64,000 nucleotides of DNA. It comes from Spinacia oleracea (Eukaryota; Streptophyta; Magnoliopsida; Caryophyllales; Amaranthaceae). Under the pieces are notes generated by a model that had not been told where the DNA came from, did not search any database, and saw only the letters and a program-made list of their open reading frames with translations. The stretch lies in the NCBI RefSeq assembly GCF_020520425.1, contig NC_079492.1, positions 144,057,861 through 144,121,860 of the forward strand. Direction: 5' to 3'. The translations under genes were made by a program, and so were the position numbers. Of the stretch, positions 47,496 to 60,289 are shown piece by piece. Numbering within the stretch: the stretch's first letter is position 1; each line of letters opens with the position of its first letter.

Positions 47496-47864
47496 TTACA
47501 TAGAACAATTGAAGTCTCCATTGATAGGAGGAATTTTGATCTTCAACCCACACTGTTGAGGTATAGCAGAGATGACTGAACCATCAATCTGACCTATGAG
47601 TGGCAGTACAGACTCGAGACACTCGCAGACTCCTCGTCTTTGTTTCTTCTTCTTCCCATATTGCTTCCAAACATAGTTAGCACCTTGACAGCAAAAACTC
47701 GAGGGAGATGAATATTGCTTATTAAGGTAAGATAAACACGGTGATAGCTCGTTAATCACCTCATTACACGGAAGTGTATCTCCTCCCGTTTGTTCTTGGC
47801 TTATCACAGAGTTGTAGGAAAGCATTAAGAGAAGAGCTAGGAATATGATGATAAGGTGACTCAT
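47496..47864 (-). CDS. Non-specific lipid-transfer-like protein
   Basis: Single exon of 122 residues. Residues 1-22 are a hydrophobic signal peptide. The eight-cysteine motif is complete: C33, C43, CC58-59, C80-x-C82, C105 and C120, i.e. spacing 9, 14, 20, 1, 22 and 14, close to type I nsLTPs. Members bind fatty acids or lysolipids in a hydrophobic tunnel and act in the cell wall, in cutin or wax supply or in defence. It is unusual in having a very basic loop, GKKKKQRRG, between the CC and CxC pairs. There is no GPI-anchor tail. A TATA box (TATATTTAA on the - strand, 47924-47932) lies about 60 bp before the ATG. Confidence 0.88.
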   Translation of the reverse strand: MSHLIIIFLALLLMLSYNSVISQEQTGGDTLPCNEVINELSPCLSYLNKQYSSPSSFCCQGANYVWKQYGKKKKQRRGVCECLESVLPLIGQIDGSVISAIPQQCGLKIKIPPINGDFNCSM

Positions 47865-47939
47865 TTTTGTGTGTTTCAGAATTTTAACTCTGATGTTTGA
47901 TAGTTAAGTGTGTGTTTAAGGGTTTAAATATACAAGGTA

Positions 47940-48954: not shown

Positions 48955-49394
48955 CTAGCGACCACTACCAGCAACCCCAGAGGATGATTGAGGCGAGTTC
49001 CTACAAAGAGGGCAAGTAGCATTCATTCTAAGCCATTCATCAATACAGTCAGCATGGAAGTAGTGATTACATTCTGGTATAGACCTCAAAGCCTCTTTAG
49101 GCTGATACTCTGACAAGCATATAGGGCAGATGTTATCACTGGGTTTTGGGAGTCGTTTACTTTCTCCTAGTATGGTTTTTGGGTATGATTCTATGGTGGG
49201 AAGATCGAGGCCTAATGTTAGGATAATTGGTTGAGGGAATATTGAAGGTGAGGATTCAGTGTTTGTGTAACGACGAGTCTGATTACGACGAGCACTGACC
49301 CTGCTGCTGGTGTAGAATGTTAAACCAACAATGCATACAAGTCCTGGTATTCCTGCTCCTAGTATTAGGCCGTATTTGGCGCTTTTTGGCAAGC
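48955..49394 (-). CDS. Membrane-RING exon of an ATL20/21/22-like E3 ligase
   Basis: The exon begins after acceptor TTTTCAG and needs one base from the upstream exon (G|GC, Gly). It codes for 146 residues to the stop. It reads GLPKSAKYG, then a membrane span (about exon residues 10-28). Next comes the GLD motif ([12 protein letters not shown]) typical of ATL proteins, then a RING-H2 finger with C90-x2-C93, C109-x-H111-x2-H114-x2-C117 and C128-x2-C131. It would transfer ubiquitin from an E2 to targets at the plasma or endosomal membrane. Three ectodomain exons lie upstream on the same strand. The nearest intact one is 6.7 kb away. No other RING exon is found in the window. Confidence 0.9.
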
Positions 49395-49404
49395 CTGAAA
49401 ACAT

Positions 49405-52012
49405 GTAAATGAATGGTTAAGAGTTAAGAGCATAGTTCTTGAGGCTTTAATTATTGAGTTATCTCAGTTAGTAGAATTATTGTTGTAACAGAAACTGTGC
49501 CCCCGGAAACAGCTTCAAACTTGTACACAACACTTTTTCCCCCGGTTTCCTATGTTACTCGGACTCTTATTTCACCACAAATACCCACGTCCGTGTCAGA
49601 TTCTCGACACTTAGATATGGGTATGAACACTGCGACACTTCATATTGGACCAAAATCATGCAATTTTTTCACAAAATAGTCGTGTCGGACACTTGGACAC
49701 TTACCCGTATCCGATATGGATATCGGAGTCCAGGTAATATAGCTTGTTTCTACACACTCCAATTTTTTTACTCCTCACTTAGCAACTAACTAGTCTACAT
49801 GTGTAACGTGTCGTTCCCAAGTATGAAGTTTGTTTTGGAACGGACAGAGTACATGGTAAGTTACAGGTAATAGTCTCACATCAGGGCACAAGTCCGGGAC
49901 CCTGGACTTTCCTAAATTAGAAAGAGGTACTAACTTATAAAGCCCAATGCCCTACATCCACAATCCAAAAATCCAAAAGGCTTGTCTAGAATTGACCCCT
50001 CTCCATGACCTTTGGCTACCATTACTACCCTACAAATTTACAACTCTAAAAGGTCAAAAAATGCGTAATGGGTGTGAGTTGTGTAAAAAGACATGTAATG
50101 TAAGAAAACTAGAAAAGAGACAGGCACACAGAGGGGTTTCGGCACACTAAAAAGTGATTTTGGCACACCTACTTTGAAAGCACGTGAAATTGTGTTGTCC
50201 TGACATAAAGGTGTGCCAAAATCAGTTCCCCACGCAGAAGAATCTGATTTTTACAGTCATTTATTTTGGTATGTCTGGTGGGCCGGGCCGTTGTGGCTTG
50301 TGAGTATCGCACAAAATTTGACTCTCACAAGTCACAAGTAGTCACAAGAGTGACGAAACCAACTTTTGGAGTGGCAAAATCAATGCCTATAACAAGCATG
50401 TAAGGGGACATCGCATATGTTTCGACTTCAACATGGACACTATAAGAAGCGTACTGCGTACACATCCTCACATAGCTTTCGACCCTCAACATAAGCGTAC
50501 ACTTAAAAGGAGCAATGAGTTTCTAATTAAGAGTTTTACACTTGTACTCCATAGATACTCATTTCTATACTCCATACATGGTAAGAGCCAAGAAGTAGAT
50601 GTCAATTTCAGTGAGTCATGAGTTCATGACACATAAGAAAGCAAAATGACACCAATTAAAACGTTTAATACAGAAAGAAAACCTCCTCAGCCGACCTACC
50701 GTGACATACAAGTGAAGTGAAACTCATTTTACTAGAGCACATTAGTTGACATGTCCACATCTCAAAACCTACCAAGATAAGTTCATATTCCTTTTTTGTT
50801 TCAAAATTTAAAGGTTGCTAACCTAACAATGAATTTCTATAATCAAGGCCATGTCACTATACTCATTCACAATCTGAAATTAATATGACCTTTATTTTAC
50901 CATATTTGCGTAGTTTCTTTTTGCACAATAACCAATAAAGTGGGTAGGTGATTGAAGTTGCATAGTTTTGCCCATGTGATTAGAGAGGGGGAAATGTTAA
51001 AAAGAAAAAATGTTTTATAAACGGGGAAGAAAGGGTAATTACGACATTTTTCCCAAAAAAGTTACTATAAAGGAAAATGATCCAGCATTGTGAAACATCC
51101 AAAAAAAAAAAAATCAGCCACAGAGTATGTACTACGTAGAAGTAGAAGAGTATGTACTACGTAGAAGTAGCATGTATGAAAACTTAACTTCGTTTTAGAA
51201 AGATTCGCAATATCAAAACATATCAATTTCACACGAAACACCTAATGGAAATACATAAACTACTTTTTCCTGATTTGGATAAATGATTTAGCCATTTTTA
51301 ACAATCGTAATACTAGAGTCTACAGACTTACAGAGTAAGAGTTAAAAACAAATTTGTATTTTGGCAAACGCCAATTAGGGAAAATGGCCCATTGCAAACG
51401 CCAAAATTGACAACACCACCATAAAAATTTGACTTTTAGTCTTTGTTTTTCATATTCAAAGAGTTCGTTGCTGTTTTTTAAAGAAACCCGGAAGATTGTA
51501 GATGACTTTTGAAAACAACATGAGAGTTGGTATTGCTCTATGCATCATGTATTCATGTGAACAGAAACATACATATTTCCTACGACTACGTATGATAAGT
51601 GGAATTTCACATGATTTCACCAACCAAAACAACTCTACAGTCTTAGCAGTCTACACTCTCGCACTTTCTAGGAATTTTCACTTTTTATTCAGTATCACGC
51701 TAATCAAACAATCACTAAATAATTATCATTCTAAAGTTTTCACTAACATATAATGATCATTATTCATAACGTAACTTCAGAGTCAAAGCTAGCCCGTTAA
51801 CTTGGACAAAGCATAGTTTATACTCCACCCCCTAAATGAAGTCACTTTGACTTGCAAGCTCATAAAGAAATGGCTTTTTTATTGACCTAGAAGGTATACA
51901 GTTTATTTGGGAACAAAGGGAATAATATAAAGAAACGGTCCATAAGTACTTGAATGGGGTGATCGGTCTAGCTTGCTAGAGTCTGGTCAAACAATTTGTG
52001 GTGTTAGTGAAA
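49405..52012. other. Large intron or intergenic region, no exon seen
   Basis: Between the RING exon and the ectodomain copies. It holds a small foldback around 50130-50240 (GATTTTGGCACACCT with its reverse complement AGGTGTGCCAAAATC). Near 51124-51172 a word of about 26 bp containing GTATGTACTACGTAGAAGTA is duplicated in tandem. Confidence 0.45.
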
Positions 52013-52270
52013 TACTATCTCTGTCCCTTAATACTCGACCTGATTTGACTTTTTGCACTATTCACATAATTTACTTTGACCCTATTTTATTTATAGTATA
52101 TGAAAACAAATGTTAGCATAATATATTGTTGGCTTCATCTTAATATATATTTTCAAAATATTTATATTTTTATAAGTTTTTATAATATGTAGTTAAAGAA
52201 ATTGATGGTCAAACTTGCGCATTAGCAAGCGTGTCCGGTCAAAACAGGTTGAGTATTAAGGGACGGAGTA
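52013..52270. mobile_element. Stowaway MITE with duplicated right end
   Basis: It starts CTATCTCTGTCCCTTAATAC and ends GTATTAAGGGACGGAGTAAG. The right terminal word is repeated once more just outside, to about 52293. It lies in the RING-gene intron. Confidence 0.75.
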
Positions 52271-52727
52271 AGTATTAAGAGACGGAGTGAGTATTTTTTT
52301 AGCTAACATGAACCCAATTGCTCAAGATCTCGAATAAGACTGTAAGACTAATTAAGAGATCCCTACTCCCGGCCCTATTCCTCATATCAAACAGTAAAAA
52401 ACCATCTGAAAGTTAGTATGAACATTGAACCCTCTGGATTCCGACTCGAGTCTCGAGCTAAGTTAATGTCGCAAAGTGGGCATGTATAGCAACTTTTTTA
52501 GGTTTACACGTTCGTCTAGTTAATGCCACAACAATTTAAAGATAAAGTGCCCTTATATGCTATTCTGTTCCACCTATTGATACTTTGATAGCACTAATTC
52601 TAAAAGACTAAAATAAAGAATCAAGATGATACGGAAACCACCACAACCAACCACTTTTTGGTTTAAAACATTGTAATAATTGGTCCCTCTCCAAGGTTTT
52701 GTTCTGTTTGATTTATTTCAGATAAAA

Positions 52728-53175
52728 TTAGTGTGTCCCGGGCGTTGCCCCGGATTTTGACTTTTATTCAGATTTATTTGTTGTAAATATGTGTCCATGT
52801 ATATGATAGGTCGTCATAGAATTATGGGGTTACACACAAGATTAGTTGCCGATTAATAACCTTCCAAGCTGAAACTCCACGCTTTATTACCCCGAATGCA
52901 TGTAATATGTTCTATAAATATTCAACCACTTACTCGTTATTACGTTCTATTACCCTGAGTTTTTTTTTTTTAGGCTTAATCTAGAAAAGTAATAATTGTA
53001 CATTTATAAATTGAATAATCATTCCCTTTTTTGCATTCACTTCTATTCAATTTGTTGTTTATTGTAAAAAGATCATAAATATTTATATAGAATATATAAC
53101 ACAAGTTGTAGGTTGGTTAAGATGGTTGGACGTTGAACTTTTAACAAAGAGGTCTGGTGTTCGATCCTTGCAGAT
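52728..53175 (-). mobile_element. Helitron 3' part abutting the broken ectodomain copy
   Basis: On the - strand a Helitron 3' end (GC hairpin CCGGGGCAACGCCCGGG, then CACACTAA, followed by T) lies at 52728. Sequence to about 53170 resembles the interior of the small Helitron at 14125-14417 (GTTAAGATGGT and TTCGATCCTTG words). The 5' TC end is not found. Similarity stops where ectodomain copy C begins. Confidence 0.6.
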
Positions 53176-53821
53176 ACACATTACTCAAATCCATGGGATA
53201 ATACCCGTTCCTATAATCGTACCCGTACCCGTATTGCTTCTCAGGCCACCAAAACGCAGCGTTTACCCTGTCGATCATCTCACATTTCCACTCCCCTTCT
53301 CTCTCCAACATCTTCTCCTCGGCCGCGCGACCGAACGCGGCCACCACCGTGTAATTCCCGCCACTCATACACGAAACTACTGAAGTATCCCCGGGAAACA
53401 TGCTCATGTCCAGCGTCGTCCCATTCGTTCTAGAGCAGTTAAGGAAAGTGTAAGGTGATCCGTAAGGGTAGAACCTGAAAGAGTCTGGCCACCTATGGTT
53501 TAATTCAAGGACCCGTTTAGGGATGCAGCGATTCGGGTCGGATAACAAGAGGATTTGGTCCAGGTATGATATTTCCCCAACAATAAGGTGACCGGCGTCA
53601 CCTAGAGGAAAGAGTGTCTGACCGTCGGAGTTGCAAGTGAGGCCAAACCAGGGGAACCCGCACCTGGCGGTTTGGTTTTCGGGTACCCAAAATGGGAATT
53701 GGATCGGGTCATTTACGTTTTGGTTGCAATAGAAGGGAGAACAGAGTTCAACTGCTTGTAGGTGTTGTGTGAAGAGGAGGTTGAGGGTGAGGATAGAGAA
53801 AAGTAACGGAATTCCATGCAT
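53176..53821 (-). pseudogene. Ectodomain exon copy C of the ATL-like gene, 3'-truncated
   Basis: ATG at 53821, a signal peptide, then the same galacturonan-binding WAK-type (GUB_WAK_bind) ectodomain as copies A and B, starting LCSPFYCNQ. The frame stays open to DLSNV and then runs into Helitron-like sequence. It has therefore lost the last ~35 codons, including the CGDC...GGSCGL cysteine module and the splice donor. It cannot join the RING exon the way A and B can. Promoter-side similarity to copy B extends at least 400 bp upstream. It is the copy nearest to the RING exon and so may be the original first exon (inference). Confidence 0.85.
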
Positions 53822-53879
53822 ATTGAAATTTTGTCTACTTTTACTACCTTATTTGCACAAAATCGGTTCTATAGGGTTG

Positions 53880-54460
53880 TACCTTATGCATTCTGAGTTC
53901 TGAACTCAAAAATTGCGCAAGGAAGTGAGATTGGGTTATGGAATTCTGGTTATCTAATTGGTGGTAGTAGTTTTGGTGTATTTTGTCAAGGGTGATTAGT
54001 CTATGTACAAGTCATTTTCTTGGATAAGCATTAGTCCCATCTCAATACGTTTATTCGAGTTTTCAACATCTTGTACTCATGTTTCAACTATCGTTTTGTT
54101 CATCTCATTTCAGGGAAAAAAAGTTCTACTAAATTCAGATAATATAAGTTTCGGAAAAAATAAGGTTACCTAAATACAACTTATAACTAAAATGAGTTTG
54201 ATGAACTTAAAGAAGTTCAGATAAGATAAGTTTAGAAAAAATAAATGAAGGTAGGTGAATAGAACGCACTCCAAAAAAGTTACTTCATATTGTTTACCCC
54301 TCATACTCTCATAGTCCTTCGCAATGTACCGCAATAATTCAAAGATATAACACATTGATAGACTATTCCGTTCCACCTATTGCTACTGAAACCACTATAT
54401 AGTTATATAGCCACTATTTTTGTGGTTCCACAATCTACACCACTTTACTCCTATTACGGA
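53880..54460. other. Upstream flank of copy C
   Basis: Homologous to the upstream flanks of copies B (56890-57300) and A (58880-59100) for at least 400 bp. No separate gene. Confidence 0.6.
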
Positions 54461-54464
54461 TTTA

Positions 54465-55422
54465 GGGGGTGTTTGGTATGACATTTTTTAGCGCAAGAAA
54501 CGGAAACGAGTAACAATTGTCGTTACTTTTTGTTTGGTCAGTGATGGGAAGTAACAATTACCGTTTCTTGACGGTAACACATCCCCCCATTTTGTTTCTG
54601 CTCAAAAACCCAAGGAAACAAAAACCGTCTCCATTGGCTCAAACACTCATCAACCTGTCATTCATCTATCTTCATGACCATTTATCATCAACCTTTGATC
54701 ATCATCATCCACCATCAACATCATGATCAATTGAAACGGTTCAAGGGTTGCAGCATTTGATCATCATCATCCACCAACATCATCATTAACATCAACGGAT
54801 TTCTGGGTTATTTGAGATTGATCTGTTTGTTTTCATGATGATTGAACATGACGATTGATGGTCGCGATTTGATGTTGATGGTGGATGATGATGATTAACG
54901 GTTGTGATGATGGATGATGGTAATAGCTGATGACTTCGTGAGCCATGATCTGTTTTTGATGATCTGCTGTAATGATTTTGAGTTTTGATGGTCTGATGAT
55001 TTTGTCATTTTGATGATGAATAAAAGAAAAAAGAAAAAGATCAAAGAAGACGAAAAAGACAGAATTAATTGAAGAGAAAATAAAAATAAAAAAGAGTTTG
55101 CTTGTAGTTAGAGGAGAGAGACGTGTGAAATGGATGAGAGAGAATTGTAAGTGGAGGAATCTTGTGATTAACAGTACCAATGTTTTCATTTTTCTTTTTC
55201 CTTTTTTTTCAATTGAAAGAAATATGCATAATAAATGAAAGTAGTGTTTCCTTTCCATTCCTTTACTAATCATTCCAAACAAAAAGAAAGGGAATGTATT
55301 ATAATTGTTTCCATTCCATTATAATACCAAACAATCATTTAAGGTAACATTTTTTATTACCATTTCCCCTTCTTATCAAAATCCTTTCCATTCCATTTCC
55401 AGTGAACTTACCAAACACTCCC
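54465..55422. mobile_element. Harbinger/Tourist-like MITE with TTA target duplication
   Basis: The ends are GGGGGTGTTTGGTA and TACCAAACACTCCC, flanked by TTA at 54462-54464 and 55423-55425. 958 bp, with an ATCATCATC-rich interior. It separates copies B and C. Confidence 0.8.
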
Positions 55423-55678
55423 TTAGGGAGTACGTGAGTAATTGAGTAGTAATTAGTTCTTCCTCTATTAGTTTCATAATCACATGCTAGGATGCTACGA
55501 TTTATATTAAGTTGATCTAGAATAGTGGTCATTTCATAAATTTCACAAGTTTAACAATCGAACTTCCTTATAATCCTAAACAATACCCTTATTAGTACGA
55601 AGTATTGGAACATTAGACATGGCATTGAAAAAAGTTAAAAGAACAGATTTAAAAATATATTGGGACAATCTCTTAATA

Positions 55679-55935
55679 GTTACTCGCACCGTCTATTAAT
55701 GAAAACTCGCACCGTTTTGACTGGACACACTTGTCAATATACAACTTTGACCATCAATATCTTTAACTACATATTATAAAAACTTATAAAAATATTAATC
55801 TTTTGAAAATATATATTAAGATGAAACTAACAATATATTATATACTAACATTTATTTTCATACACTAAAAATAAAATCGGGTTAAAGTGAATTATGATAA
55901 TAGTGCAAAAAGTCAAAATAGTGCGAGTATGAAAG
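55679..55935. mobile_element. Probable Stowaway-like MITE
   Basis: Inverted GTTACTCGCACCGTCTATTA and AGTGCGAGTATGAAAG ends, with an interior similar to the 52013-52270 element (an ATATATTGTTAG-like stretch). Ends are degraded and limits approximate. Confidence 0.5.
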
Positions 55936-56089
55936 AAGAGAGAGAGAGAGTATTTAATTACTTGTAGTAATACAGGGTATTTACTCAAGACGCTTGAATA
56001 AACTCCCATTTTAAACAAACAAAAAAAAAACTCTCACAAAAATCGATCAAATGCAGTAAAAACAAACAAGGAAAAAGAGTGACACTCAC

Positions 56090-56864
56090 CGGAAGAAGAA
56101 GAGGCAGGAATGTAGCAAGCAACTTCGAGGCCCGAATCACCCACCAACCCACAAGACCCACCACGAACCATACAATCACCACAACCCGGAATATCCCAAC
56201 CCAGTTGCACAAACACATTACTCAAATCCATGGGATAATACCCATGCCTATCGTAATCGTACTCGTACTGCATCCCAGGCCCCCAAAACGCAACGTTTAC
56301 CCTCTCGATCATCTCACACTTCCACTCCCTTCCTCTCTCCAACATCTTCTCCTCGGCGGTGCTATCGAACGCCGCCACCACCGTGTAATTCCCGCCACTC
56401 ATACACGAAACTATTGAAGTATCCCCAGGAAGCATGCTCATTTCCAGCGTCGTTCCATTCGTTCTGGAGCAGTTAAGGAAAGTGTAAGGTGATTCGTAAG
56501 GGTAGAACCTGAAGGAGGAAGGCCACCTATGGTTTAATTCAATGACCCGTTTAGGGATACATTGATTCGGGTCGGATACTAAAAGGATTTGGTCCATGTA
56601 TGAAATTTCCCCAACAATAAGGTGACCGGCTTCACCAAGAGGAAAGAGGGTCTGACCGTCGGAGTTGCAAGAGAGGTCAAACCCGGGGAACCCGCACCTG
56701 GTGGTTTGATTTTCGGGTACCGAAAATGGGAATTGGATCGGGTCATTTGCGTGGTGGTTGCAAGAGAAGGGAGAACAGAGTTCTGCAACTGTTAGTAGGT
56801 GTTGTGGGAAGAGGAGGTTGAGGTTGAGGGTGATGATAGAGAAAATTAACGCTAATCTATTCAT
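56090..56864 (-). CDS. Ectodomain exon copy B of the ATL21-like gene
   Basis: ATG at 56864, 258 codons plus one base to the donor TTCCG|GTGAGT (56090/56089). It has a signal peptide of about 25 residues and then a GUB_WAK_bind domain (LCSPFSCN, DPIQFPF, RCGFPGF). A middle part with NCSRTNGTT glycosylation sites follows, and it ends with CGDCMVRGGSCGL and ACYIPASSSS. Its phase fits the RING exon (G|GC), giving a predicted 404-residue membrane E3 ligase if joined to 48955-49394 across a 6.7-kb intron. This layout is that of ATL20/21/22. A TATA-like CTATATAA (about 56911-56918) lies 50 bp upstream. This is the intact copy nearest to the RING exon, hence the best candidate for the expressed gene. 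Confidence 0.85.
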
Positions 56865-56889
56865 TATTGAAATCGTGTCTAATTATACG

Positions 56890-58070
56890 ACCTTATTTGA
56901 ACACGATCAGTTATATAGGATCCTATCTTTGCATTATTGAGTTCTGAACTCAAAATTGTGGATTTTTGGGGCAAGGGAAGTGAGATTGGGTTATGGAATT
57001 TTGGTTATATTATTGGTAGTTTTGGTTTATTTTGTCAAAGGTGATTAGTCAATGTGCAAGTCCTTTTCTTGGACAAGCATTAGTCCCCTCTCAATACGTT
57101 TATTTGAGTTTTCAACTTGATGTACATCAAAGCACTATTATATTCTCCTTTTTACCACTTATTTCGGAAAAAATAAGATCAATTAAGTTCAGATAATATA
57201 AGTTCATAAAATAACATGGCTATTCAAATGCAATTTATAAGTAAAACGAGTTATGAGAAGTTCAGATAATAGAAGATCAGAAGAAAAAAAATTGAACATC
57301 AGGTGAATAGGAGTAGAACGCATTCAAAGAAAGTTATTGTTTGCCCCTCGACTTCTTCACAATGTACCACAACAATTCAAAGATACAACATTCTTATAGG
57401 GCTACCAAAAGTCTGAAATTTTGTGGTTCCACAACACTATCACGGAATAGTACTAAATACTTCCTCCATTTGTTTCATAATCGTAGGCTACGACTTACTT
57501 CGTATATAAAGTTGATCCTAGAATAAATTGATCATTCTATAAATTTCGCAATAAAAATCAAACTTCTTTATAGCCCTATAATACCCTTATTAGTACACGA
57601 AGTATTGAACTACTCCGTATTAAACATTAAAACTGACCCAAAAGACCGGAACCAAAAATAAATGGCGTCCTTAAAATTTACTCCATCCTTTTTAAACAGT
57701 TTCATATACTATTTCCGGCCTACTTTTTAGCGAGTTATATTTTCATATTTTGTTAACTTCTACATTAAAATATTACATTCAAGGTCCCTACTCCGCGCGT
57801 AAGTTTATTATTTTTTCCGTTGAACCCACATATCCTCACAGTCAGTATATTTTTTCACAATAAATTATTTACCCAGTGCCAAACATTTCTAATAAATAAT
57901 TAAACATCCACCACTATTATTATTATTACAAGAAATCAACTCATCTTCCTTAACCTCTTGTGTCAATAAACATGTACTCCGAAACATGAGAAATATGATA
58001 AACATGAGACGTGTATCAGGTAGCAATTTCAGATAGCTGAATAAAAACAAACAAGGAAAAAGAGTGACAC
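56890..58070. other. Spacer between ectodomain copies A and B
   Basis: The part next to copy B matches the flanks of the other copies. The sequence following the copy A donor matches that following the copy B donor (GTGAGTGTCACTC and on). There is no RING or membrane-span coding sequence here, so copy A has no partner exon of its own. Confidence 0.6.
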
Positions 58071-58074
58071 TCAC

Positions 58075-58855
58075 CGGAAGAAGATGACGCAGGAATATAG
58101 CAAGCAACTTCAATGCCCGAATCACCCACCAACCCACAAGACCCGCCACGAAGTATACAATCCCCGCAACTCGGAATATCCCAACCCAATTGCACAAACA
58201 CATTACTCAAATCATCAATCGGGTAATACCCGTGCCGGTACTCATCCCCGTGTCTGTACTCATACCCGTACCGCATCTCCGGCCACCAAAACGCAGCGTT
58301 TACTCTCTCGATCACCTCACACTTCCTTTCCCCTCCTCTCTCCAACATCTTCGTCTCCGCCTCATGATCGAACGCGGCCACTACTGTATGATTGCTGCCA
58401 CTCATACACGAAATTACTGAAGTACCCATGGGAAGCACGCTCGGGTCTAGCTTCGTTCCTGAGCAATTAAGGTAAGTGTAAGTTGATTCCAGAGGTCCGA
58501 ACCTTAAAAGGGCAGGCCACGTATGGGTGAAGTCAAGGACCCGTTTAGGGATGCATTTTTTCGGGTCGGATACCCAGAGTAGTTGGTCTGGGTATGACAT
58601 ACCCTCAATAATCAGGTGACCGTGGCCGGAGTTGAGAGGAATGAGTGTTTGACCGTATGAGTTACAAGAGACGTCGAACCCGGGGTACCCGCACCTAGAG
58701 GTTTGGTTTTTGGGTACCCAAAATGGGAATTGGATCGGATCATATCTGTGTTGGTTGCAAGAGAAGGGAGAACAGAGTTCATTAGATGCTAAAAGGTGTT
58801 GTGAGAAGAGGAGGTTGAGGGTGAGGAGAGAGAAAATTAACGGAAATTTATTCAT
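58075..58855 (-). CDS. Ectodomain exon copy A of the ATL21-like gene
   Basis: ATG at 58855, 260 codons plus one base to the donor at 58075/58074, same phase as copy B. Signal peptide, then GUB_WAK_bind domain (LCSPFSCNQH, DPIQFPF, RCGYPGF) and the CGDCILRGGSCGL module before ACYIPASSSS. It is the most diverged copy, with HGDEYRHG-type repeats near the end of the middle part. It could splice to the RING exon to give 406 residues, skipping copies B and C. If it does not, read-through after the donor adds about 17 residues and yields a secreted protein without a membrane span. Confidence 0.75.
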
Positions 58856-59151
58856 ATTGGAATTGGTGGGGCGTTTACAACCTCACTTGGAACAGGAACT
58901 ATATGATCGTATGTCTGCTAATTTTTTGATTTTTGGCGCAAGGGAAGTGAGATTGAGTTGTGGGATTTTGGTTATTAATTGGTGGTAGTAGTTTTGGTTT
59001 ATTTTGTTAATGGTGATTAGTCAATTTACAAGTCGTTTTCTTGGACAAGCATTAGTCCAATAGCCCCGTCTCAATACGTTTATTTAAATTTTTCGTATTC
59101 TTGTGCTCATATTATATTTAAAGTATCCATTTTTATTATATCATTCACACG

Positions 59152-59324: not shown

Positions 59325-60289
59325 TCTATTACTATATACGTAGTACTAAAAGAGACACCAGGAATGACACATGTCACTACCTGGTGCGATTTTTTCCCGC
59401 CAATTTTTTTTTTTTTTAACTTTTTTAAAAGATTTTACTTTGCATTTTTTTAGGAAACTAAGATAAAAATGAAATAAAATATAATTGAATTACCATCGAT
59501 AGAATATGCAGTTATTTTGTAAATATTATGTATTAATTAGATTCCTAATTAATAGCCTCATATCACGCTATTGTACAACAGATAGTTTGTATATATGTTG
59601 ATGTCCTTCATGTACCATCCCGCCACCAGATTGGTGATATTTTTACAAAAGGTCTTCCACGTGTACCTTTTAATGATTTTCCGGACAGTCTTAGCGTACG
59701 ACAATCTCCCACTTCGACTGCGGGGGTGTGATAGAATATGCAGTTATTTTGTAAATATTATGTATTAATTAGATTCCTAATTAATAGCCTCATATCACGC
59801 TATTGTACAACAGGTAGTTTGTATATATACTGACAATACACAATCAATGAAAATCAGGGGAATTATTTCTCACAACCACAAATGTAACTACGTAGTACAT
59901 GATATATTATTGGAGGAAAGATGAATCAATATAATTTTCTCCTTTACAATTTGATTTTATTTATGTATTGTTATAACTTTTAAATTAATTTATATAATAT
60001 TGAAGAATTGATTTCTAATGTTAGTCTAATAACAATACACAGTGAGTATATATGGATGTTAATTAAAATAATAATAAGTGGTAAGTATACAACTATATAA
60101 TCTTTAACTTTGTACTCCGTATTGTACTAATATGCATATTTAGCTTATTTTATACACTATAAGTTCATACTTTTGCATATATTCTTTTTACTTTCACGTT
60201 TTCCTTATATCACAAGTCTTTTATTTAGATACTATTGAAATAATAAAATATTTTAGTAATAACCGTACGTTGCACGGGACCTAATCTAG
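59325..60289 (+). mobile_element. Non-autonomous Helitron, 965 bp
   Basis: It starts TCTATTACTATATA after A. It ends with a hairpin (CCGTACGTTGCACGGG) and CTAG before T. No Rep/helicase is present. It carries an LTR-element remnant in its interior. Same family as 14125-14417. Confidence 0.8.
59499..59870 (+). mobile_element. Copia remnant inside the Helitron, fossil
   Basis: Two nearly identical LTR-like stretches (about 59499-59605 and 59731-59837, GATAGAATATGCAG start) flank a short piece. That piece resembles the last residues of a Copia polyprotein (a HVPSRHQIGDIFTKGLP-like end) and a purine tract. The internal region is almost wholly deleted. The close match of the two repeats suggests a fairly young insertion or a later exchange. 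The element is broken. Confidence 0.7.

Follow-up and report, generated by a model that had tools for sequence, protein, structure and literature searches.

Introduction

The Arabidopsis receptor kinase LRK10L3 is described as using alternative first exons, so that its isoforms have distinct extracellular parts but the same membrane and kinase parts, with peptide support for both isoforms (PMC13136898). In Arabis alpina, the FLC orthologue PEP1 is reported to carry a tandem duplication of ~2 kb that covers the first exon, part of the promoter and part of the first intron, and to produce from it two transcripts that overlap and differ in their first exon (PMC7927791). Tandem variable first exons, each with its own promoter, are described upstream of common downstream exons in vertebrate UGT1 (PMC1885805), and tandem variable first exons with common downstream exons in the vertebrate protocadherin cluster (PMC3325998). 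In the ATL family of grapevine, GUB_WAK_bind and WAK_assoc are listed in individual proteins (PMC5133618). Among the matches listed in a search of the open-licence literature, none described first exons shared in this way for ATL or other RING ligases.

Here, a window of 64,000 nucleotides of Spinacia oleracea DNA (contig NC_079492.1) was analyzed, in which three ectodomain exons precede one membrane-RING-H2 exon. We take the product to be of the ATL20/21/22 type, and like these ligases it combines a GUB_WAK_bind ectodomain, a putative membrane segment, a GLD motif and an ATL RING-H2; the locus differs from their usual layout of one ectodomain exon per RING exon, which is found in most C3/C2 paralogues. 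Whereas LRK10L3 encodes a kinase with two isoforms, a RING ligase with three first exons, two of them intact, is encoded here. PEP1 is a transcription factor gene with one duplication, whereas two rounds are proposed here and the exon would encode a secreted-side sensor. The proteins of UGT1 and the protocadherins are unrelated to those of the locus, and their clusters have many more first exons. Arabidopsis LRK10L1 has two isoforms, 1.1 and 1.2, that arise through alternative promoters of a single locus.

Results

Three ectodomain exons and a single membrane-RING exon

The preliminary description of the window had placed three tandem ectodomain exons upstream of one RING exon, and Pfam and tblastn searches confirmed that this layout is real. 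All features lie on the minus strand in the order A, B, C and RING exon. Ectodomain exon A (58855–58075) opens with an ATG and encodes a hydrophobic N-terminus, a GUB_WAK_bind domain and 12 cysteines before ending in phase 1 at the donor CCG|GTGAGT. Ectodomain exon B (56864–56090) has the same layout, 69% amino acid identity to A and an identical phase-1 donor. Copy C (53821–53141) is open for 226 amino acids and is 79% identical to B over the shared part, and the 3' end of its exon and the normal donor are missing. The membrane-RING exon (49394–48955) encodes a putative transmembrane segment, the GLD motif and an ATL-type RING-H2 followed by a stop.

GUB_WAK_bind was detected above the Pfam cut-off in A (E = 8e-12), B (1.5e-11) and C (1.7e-12). 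The WAK_assoc module, which follows GUB_WAK_bind in this type of ligase, stayed under the cut-off in both A (E = 0.083) and B (0.013); it was just under it in the C3 paralogue (1.6e-5) and above it in the C2 paralogue (1.4e-8). The RING exon matched zf-RING_2 (E = 3.3e-15) with the complete consensus C-x2-C-x15-C-x-H-x2-H-x2-C-x3-W-x6-C-P-x-C, and it holds both the GLD motif and the ATL RING-H2 spacing with P-x-C and C-x3-W, which we take to be marks of the family. By hydropathy alone, the N-termini are candidate signal peptides (12-residue Kyte-Doolittle mean 2.3–2.4) and the start of the RING exon carries the putative transmembrane segment (19-residue mean 2.1). The product would be expected to act as an E3 ligase, and the A and B ectodomains may differ in ligand.

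The claim that the window holds only one RING exon was borne out: tblastn with the RING protein (E ≤ 10) returned the exon itself and short matches at E 0.45–8.8, with no convincing RING remnant between the copies in the window. Three of these matches, 9–21 residues long at E 2.2–6.8, fall in the B–C spacer; they were taken as chance and rejected as remnants. No second RING exon was detected in the two 10-kb flanks of the window (tblastn, 1e-3).

Splice sites and predicted fusions

A and B had been described as intact with donors in the same phase, and both frames proved open with the best-scoring GT in phase 1. The donors after 58075 and 56090 score 8/9 and are the top GT in the scanned 58855–58016 and 56864–56034, where the runner-up scores 7. 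The acceptor of the RING exon at 49394 ranked first, by a simple score, of the 161 [CT]AG sites between 56090 and 49000. Joined in silico, A plus RING gives 406 and B plus RING 404 amino acids, both open to the RING stop. The predicted splices to the RING exon would remove introns of 8.7 kb from A and 6.7 kb from B. Past the donor, A and B agree in all of the first 33 intron bases, against 75–77% in the remaining long matched blocks of the spacers; the 33-base identity may be a conversion tract. If the donors are read through, the frames of A and B run 18–19 more codons to stops at about 58016 and 56034, and the resulting tails diverge after about 11 residues.

The duplicated unit lacks a RING exon

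The repeated unit of ~2 kb consists of the promoter flank, the ectodomain exon and the intron start, without the RING exon, indicating that first exons and not whole genes were duplicated. The 5' flanks are shared, with homology of B and C reaching about 57390/54352 and of A and B about 59092/57112. The 5' flank of B (56865–57390) is homologous to that of C (53822–54352; 75.5%), and the 5' flank of A (58856–59092) to that of B (within a 77.5% match); these flanks may have promoter activity. Downstream of A, a spacer block (57445–57607) is homologous to 55444–55607 downstream of B (76.6%), showing that the duplicated unit extends through the intron start. A further block downstream of C (52526–52596) is homologous to 54329–54397 (74.6%). 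It was considered as a trace of a fourth ectodomain copy and rejected, as it can be placed at the end of unit C and there is no ectodomain match there.

Copy C is indeed broken, as first described: its homology to B ends at 53168, where a dispersed repeat of ~430 bp (52737–53167) starts. Of 694 candidate places for this repeat in the genome, 40 were scored, itself and 39 others, and the best of the others is 96% identical. Use of C through the normal donor was rejected, since that donor is missing. C retains an in-frame cryptic phase-1 donor, AAT|GTGAGA, at codon 179 (7/9), so that it is broken, yet not provably silent.

Selection on the exons and dispersed RING copies

A and B remain stop-free with intact donors at a synonymous divergence of about 0.28–0.36 changes per site, and in neutral simulations both stayed stop-free in 2 of 3000 runs. 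Their dN/dS was 0.47 by NG86 (bootstrap 0.31–0.70) and higher, 0.63, by ML. Thus, A and B stayed coding under moderate constraint. The dN/dS interval for B versus C (0.39–1.16) includes 1.

Against dispersed copies elsewhere, the RING exon gave a dN/dS of 0.32–0.41; this is at most suggestive of constraint on the exon, since the captured copies are themselves partly neutral. The dispersed copies were considered as retrocopies, which would prove the splice, and rejected, as all four carry 79 bp of the intron including the acceptor. They also carry about 24 bp of 3' flank. In copy L045, which was read over its whole length, there are a CACTACTAC terminus and internal repeats, and the other three match it at 98–99% over about 1.58 kb, flanks included. 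The dispersed RING-exon copies are transposon-captured DNA.

Paralogues and kinase loci in the same genome

Genome-wide, no other close ectodomain exon was found (28 of 28 candidates scored), nor any other close full RING exon save the transposon-captured copies (150 scored of 223 candidates). In the genome match lists, a RING match precedes the next ectodomain exon for 10 of the 11 paralogous ectodomain exons that are ATL-like, and both ectodomain–RING pairs that were checked share the same phase-1 junction. Seven of the ten paralogous ectodomain-to-RING spans measure 0.6–1.9 kb and three 4.1–7.7 kb; the predicted A and B introns are longer than those seven.

Stretches of LRK10L-like genes showed ectodomain to kinase exon ratios of 5:1, 2:1 and 3:2, and the one LRK10L-like ectodomain exon that was scanned carries GUB_WAK_bind. 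In the 5:1 array, at 115.67–115.68 Mb on contig 1, a phase-1 GTATG site lies close to the end of each ectodomain exon; of the five end donors, three score just 6/9, and other GTs in the frames of these three score higher.

Discussion

On balance, the locus is probably a variable-first-exon cluster of an ATL20/21/22-type ligase, in which each promoter would drive its own ectodomain into the shared membrane-RING exon. Two rounds of tandem duplication would have multiplied a unit of ~2 kb comprising promoter flank, ectodomain exon and intron start and left the membrane-RING exon single. A transcript from promoter A or B would open with the ectodomain exon of that promoter. As a first exon does not require an acceptor, the donor would skip the downstream ectodomain exons and join the strong acceptor at 49394. 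The outcome would be ligases of 406 or 404 amino acids with different galacturonan-binding-type ectodomains and the same membrane-RING part, so that ligases differing in their sensors could plausibly come from a single locus. The question raised by the preliminary description, whether the arrangement is used or duplicate debris, moves toward use, because no RING trace was recognised in the duplicated unit, A and B are open under moderate constraint, and LRK10L3 offers a precedent at the peptide level.

That either A or B alone is spliced to the RING exon, with the other a silent or decaying duplicate like C, is rather unlikely but is to be taken seriously. C itself shows that copies decay at this locus, the constraint on A and B is only moderate, and the introns exceed most paralogous spans, a length that also speaks against the cluster; on the other hand, both A and B are stop-free with intact donors despite their synonymous divergence. 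A locus with one used copy and one younger relic would look much the same as a working cluster. It is improbable that A, B or both stay unspliced and give secreted ectodomains, acting as decoys or wall binders, with the RING exon supplied by a different copy. The frames do continue for 18–19 codons beyond the donor, and it is plausible that some GUB_WAK proteins lack a catalytic part, but A and B differ in the tails and agree fully in the donor and in 33 intron bases, a pattern more in keeping with selection on splicing than on the tail.

Tandem repeats are prone to misassembly, and the RING exons of A and B could have been lost or the copies misjoined; we regard this as very improbable, as homologous blocks follow in the same order in the A–B and B–C spacers and enclose no RING exon, the copies are only 63–79% identical in protein and thus too divergent to collapse easily, and among the genome-wide candidates scored there was neither another close ectodomain exon nor another close full RING exon outside the captured copies. 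Decay of the whole locus, with neither A nor B still joined to the RING exon, has hardly any probability either: C is broken and repeats have inserted in the intron and spacers, but A and B are open, their splice signals match the RING exon, and the RING consensus is complete.

If the variable-first-exon cluster is extended to the kinases, a broader and tentative proposal follows, which we hold below the reading of the locus itself. The GUB_WAK ectodomain exon may be a self-contained sensor cassette of promoter, exon and phase-1 donor that was multiplied before a single membrane-catalytic exon independently in RING ligases, at this locus, and in LRK10L kinases, in the 5:1 array, giving UGT1-like sensor repertoires with constant output.

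If the cluster is used, several cell-wall-type sensors would be coupled to one ubiquitin-ligase output, and this sensor diversity would be hidden from annotation that assumes one gene per catalytic domain. Variable-first-exon logic, peptide-backed for one plant receptor kinase, would then extend to E3 ligases, suggesting first-exon duplication as a general path to plant sensor diversity.

Organization of the locus

Three ectodomain exons, each with an ATG, a hydrophobic stretch in the hydropathy profile and a GUB_WAK_bind domain, lie in tandem on the minus strand of the window (C6:144057861-144121860): exon A at 58855-58075, exon B at 56864-56090 and copy C at 53821-53141, together with one exon on the same strand encoding a membrane segment, a GLD motif and an ATL-type RING-H2 (RING exon, 49394-48955). 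WAK_assoc stayed under the cut-off in A (E 0.083) and B (E 0.013), where it was only weakly seen. The phase-1 donor CCG|GTGAGT is identical in A and B and by simple scoring is the top GT of each exon (8/9 consensus positions), and in a simple pyrimidine scoring the RING acceptor ranks first among 161 [CT]AG sites. Both in silico fusions read open throughout, giving 406 aa for A+RING and 404 aa for B+RING, and the junctions placed by the preliminary description at 58075, 56090 and 49394 were exact. The homology of copy C ends at 53168, the start point of a ~430-bp element present in at least 39 other places (best other copy 96%; 40 of 694 candidates scored), and C has lost the end of the exon together with its normal donor and the opening stretch of the intron. 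A shortened C product would be possible because a cryptic phase-1 donor (7/9) remains at codon 179.

Two 104-bp direct repeats, 97-99% identical, were found upstream of exon A (59498-59833). By eye, an open frame resembling a lipid-transfer-protein (8-Cys) gene adjoins the RING exon downstream (47496-47903, minus strand).

The RING exon and its transposon-borne copies

The tblastn search with the RING protein returned, in the window, the exon itself and short matches only (E 0.45-8.8), of which three fall in the B-C spacer; the 10-kb flanks gave no RING match at 1e-3. Across the genome (894 Mb, 242 contigs), 148 matches were obtained from 150 of 223 candidates scored; the closest full-length ones listed were three transposon-borne copies (82-83%), followed by an ATL-like C3 cluster and a C2 gene (47-49%). 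The fourth transposon-borne copy (C1:42.28 Mb) is more damaged, and a match at C1:71.6 Mb, 61% over 72 residues, ranked behind the transposon-borne copies. The nearest other C6 match among those listed is ~456 kb off and covers the RING core only.

Window positions 49473-48931 are matched at 87-88% by four places (C6:92.39, C3:89.90, C6:112.91 and C1:42.28 Mb), the captured segment comprising 79 bp of intron including the acceptor, the whole RING exon and 24 bp past its end. The copy examined over its whole length (L045) carries a CACTACTAC end and internal repeats, features of CACTA transposons; the other three are 98-99% identical to it, and one frameshift is common to all four. A CACTA-like transposon has captured the RING exon and carried it to four places or more. 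As DNA captures that include intron and acceptor, these copies were rejected as evidence of splicing. The window exon compared with them gave dN/dS of 0.32-0.41 over 120-121 codons, in four mutually non-independent comparisons.

Origin of the layout

Homology between A and B spans 59092-58042 and 57112-56057 (77.5%) and that between B and C 57390-56205 and 54352-53168 (81.9%), with spacer blocks in conserved order (57607-57445/55607-55444 and 54397-54329/52596-52526). By these spans and ordered blocks, the duplicated unit is ~2 kb long and consists of 5' flank, ectodomain exon and intron start; the extra B-C distance would be inserted sequence. Neither the A-B nor the B-C spacer holds a recognisable RING exon. 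An older duplication of the whole gene, with RING exons lost early, may also have produced the arrangement, but it requires more steps. The three-ectodomain/one-RING layout is real, and is best explained by first-exon duplication.

An inverted pair of related sequences, 82-87% alike, has one member in the B-C spacer (55702-55946) and the other in the intron preceding the RING exon (52015-52257), and is probably a small transposon. Residues 176-213 of the exon B protein have a short 61% match at C1:53872935-53873063, perhaps another captured fragment.

Coding constraint on the ectodomain exons

NG86 dN/dS was 0.47 for A-B (bootstrap 0.31-0.70), 0.63 for A-C (0.39-0.97) and 0.64 for B-C (0.39-1.16, an interval that takes in 1). 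The corresponding values were 0.63, 0.70 and 0.73 by ML and 0.54, 0.61 and 0.79 by YN00, both methods lying above NG86 for A-B and B-C. All 6 gap runs between A and B keep the frame, which in a protein-based alignment shows no more than that the two frames can be aligned over their whole length. A and B were stop-free together in 2 of 3000 neutral simulation runs (substitutions only, 0.15 per site per branch, with today's A and B as starting sequences). Between A and B, the final 29 codons of the comparison are 91% alike and the first 33 intron bases 100%, reflecting either constraint or gene conversion.

Comparison with ATL-like and LRK10L-like loci

Eleven ATL-like ectodomain exons were considered (nine in C3:5.06-5.19 Mb, one at C3:8.57 Mb and one on C2). 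According to the match lists, a RING match precedes the next ectodomain exon for 10 of them; the eleventh has its next RING match in common with its neighbour. In the large cluster at C3:5.057-5.193 Mb, covered outside 5.125-5.135 and 5.155-5.185 Mb, ectodomain and RING matches differ in number; there are extra RING matches, several of them with no ectodomain exon nearby. Two paralogue pairs combine a phase-1 donor with a fitting acceptor, and a third (C2) has a phase-1 donor but no clear acceptor. Of ten paralogous ectodomain-to-RING spans, seven measure 0.6-1.9 kb and the other three 4.1, 7.0 and 7.7 kb, so introns of 6.7-8.7 kb at the A/B locus would be long, yet paralleled.

Four stretches with kinase matches were chosen by eye among 83 GUB_WAK_bind matches, as examples and not a survey. 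At C1:115670591-115682570, five tandem GUB_WAK ectodomain exons precede one LRK10L-like membrane-kinase part, with no kinase remnant between them. All five carry a phase-1 GTATG site near the end, two scoring 8/9 and three scoring 6/9 and outscored by other GTs of their frames; the membrane exon acceptor, TATTCAG|GG, suits phase 1 by eye. Three ectodomain exons, one (C5_e2) without a clear end donor, occur with two kinase exons at C5:20407536-20417351, and at C3:90864685-90869900 two lie ahead of a single kinase match that is truncated where the fetched stretch ends. The C2:18.44 Mb stretch has a kinase match of 50 residues only.

Three precedents are known. Alternative first exons of Arabidopsis LRK10L3, supported by peptides, join differing extracellular parts to one and the same membrane and kinase part, and its authors propose diverse signals feeding a common core (PMC13136898). 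PEP1 originated in a ~2-kb first-exon duplication, the same kind as at the spinach locus (PMC7927791), and UGT1 is the classic case of variable first exons (PMC1885805). On the sequence features of the spinach locus, we lean slightly towards use of the RING exon in common by A and B as the best explanation. The arrangement would then be of a known kind, that of variable first exons, here in an E3 ligase.
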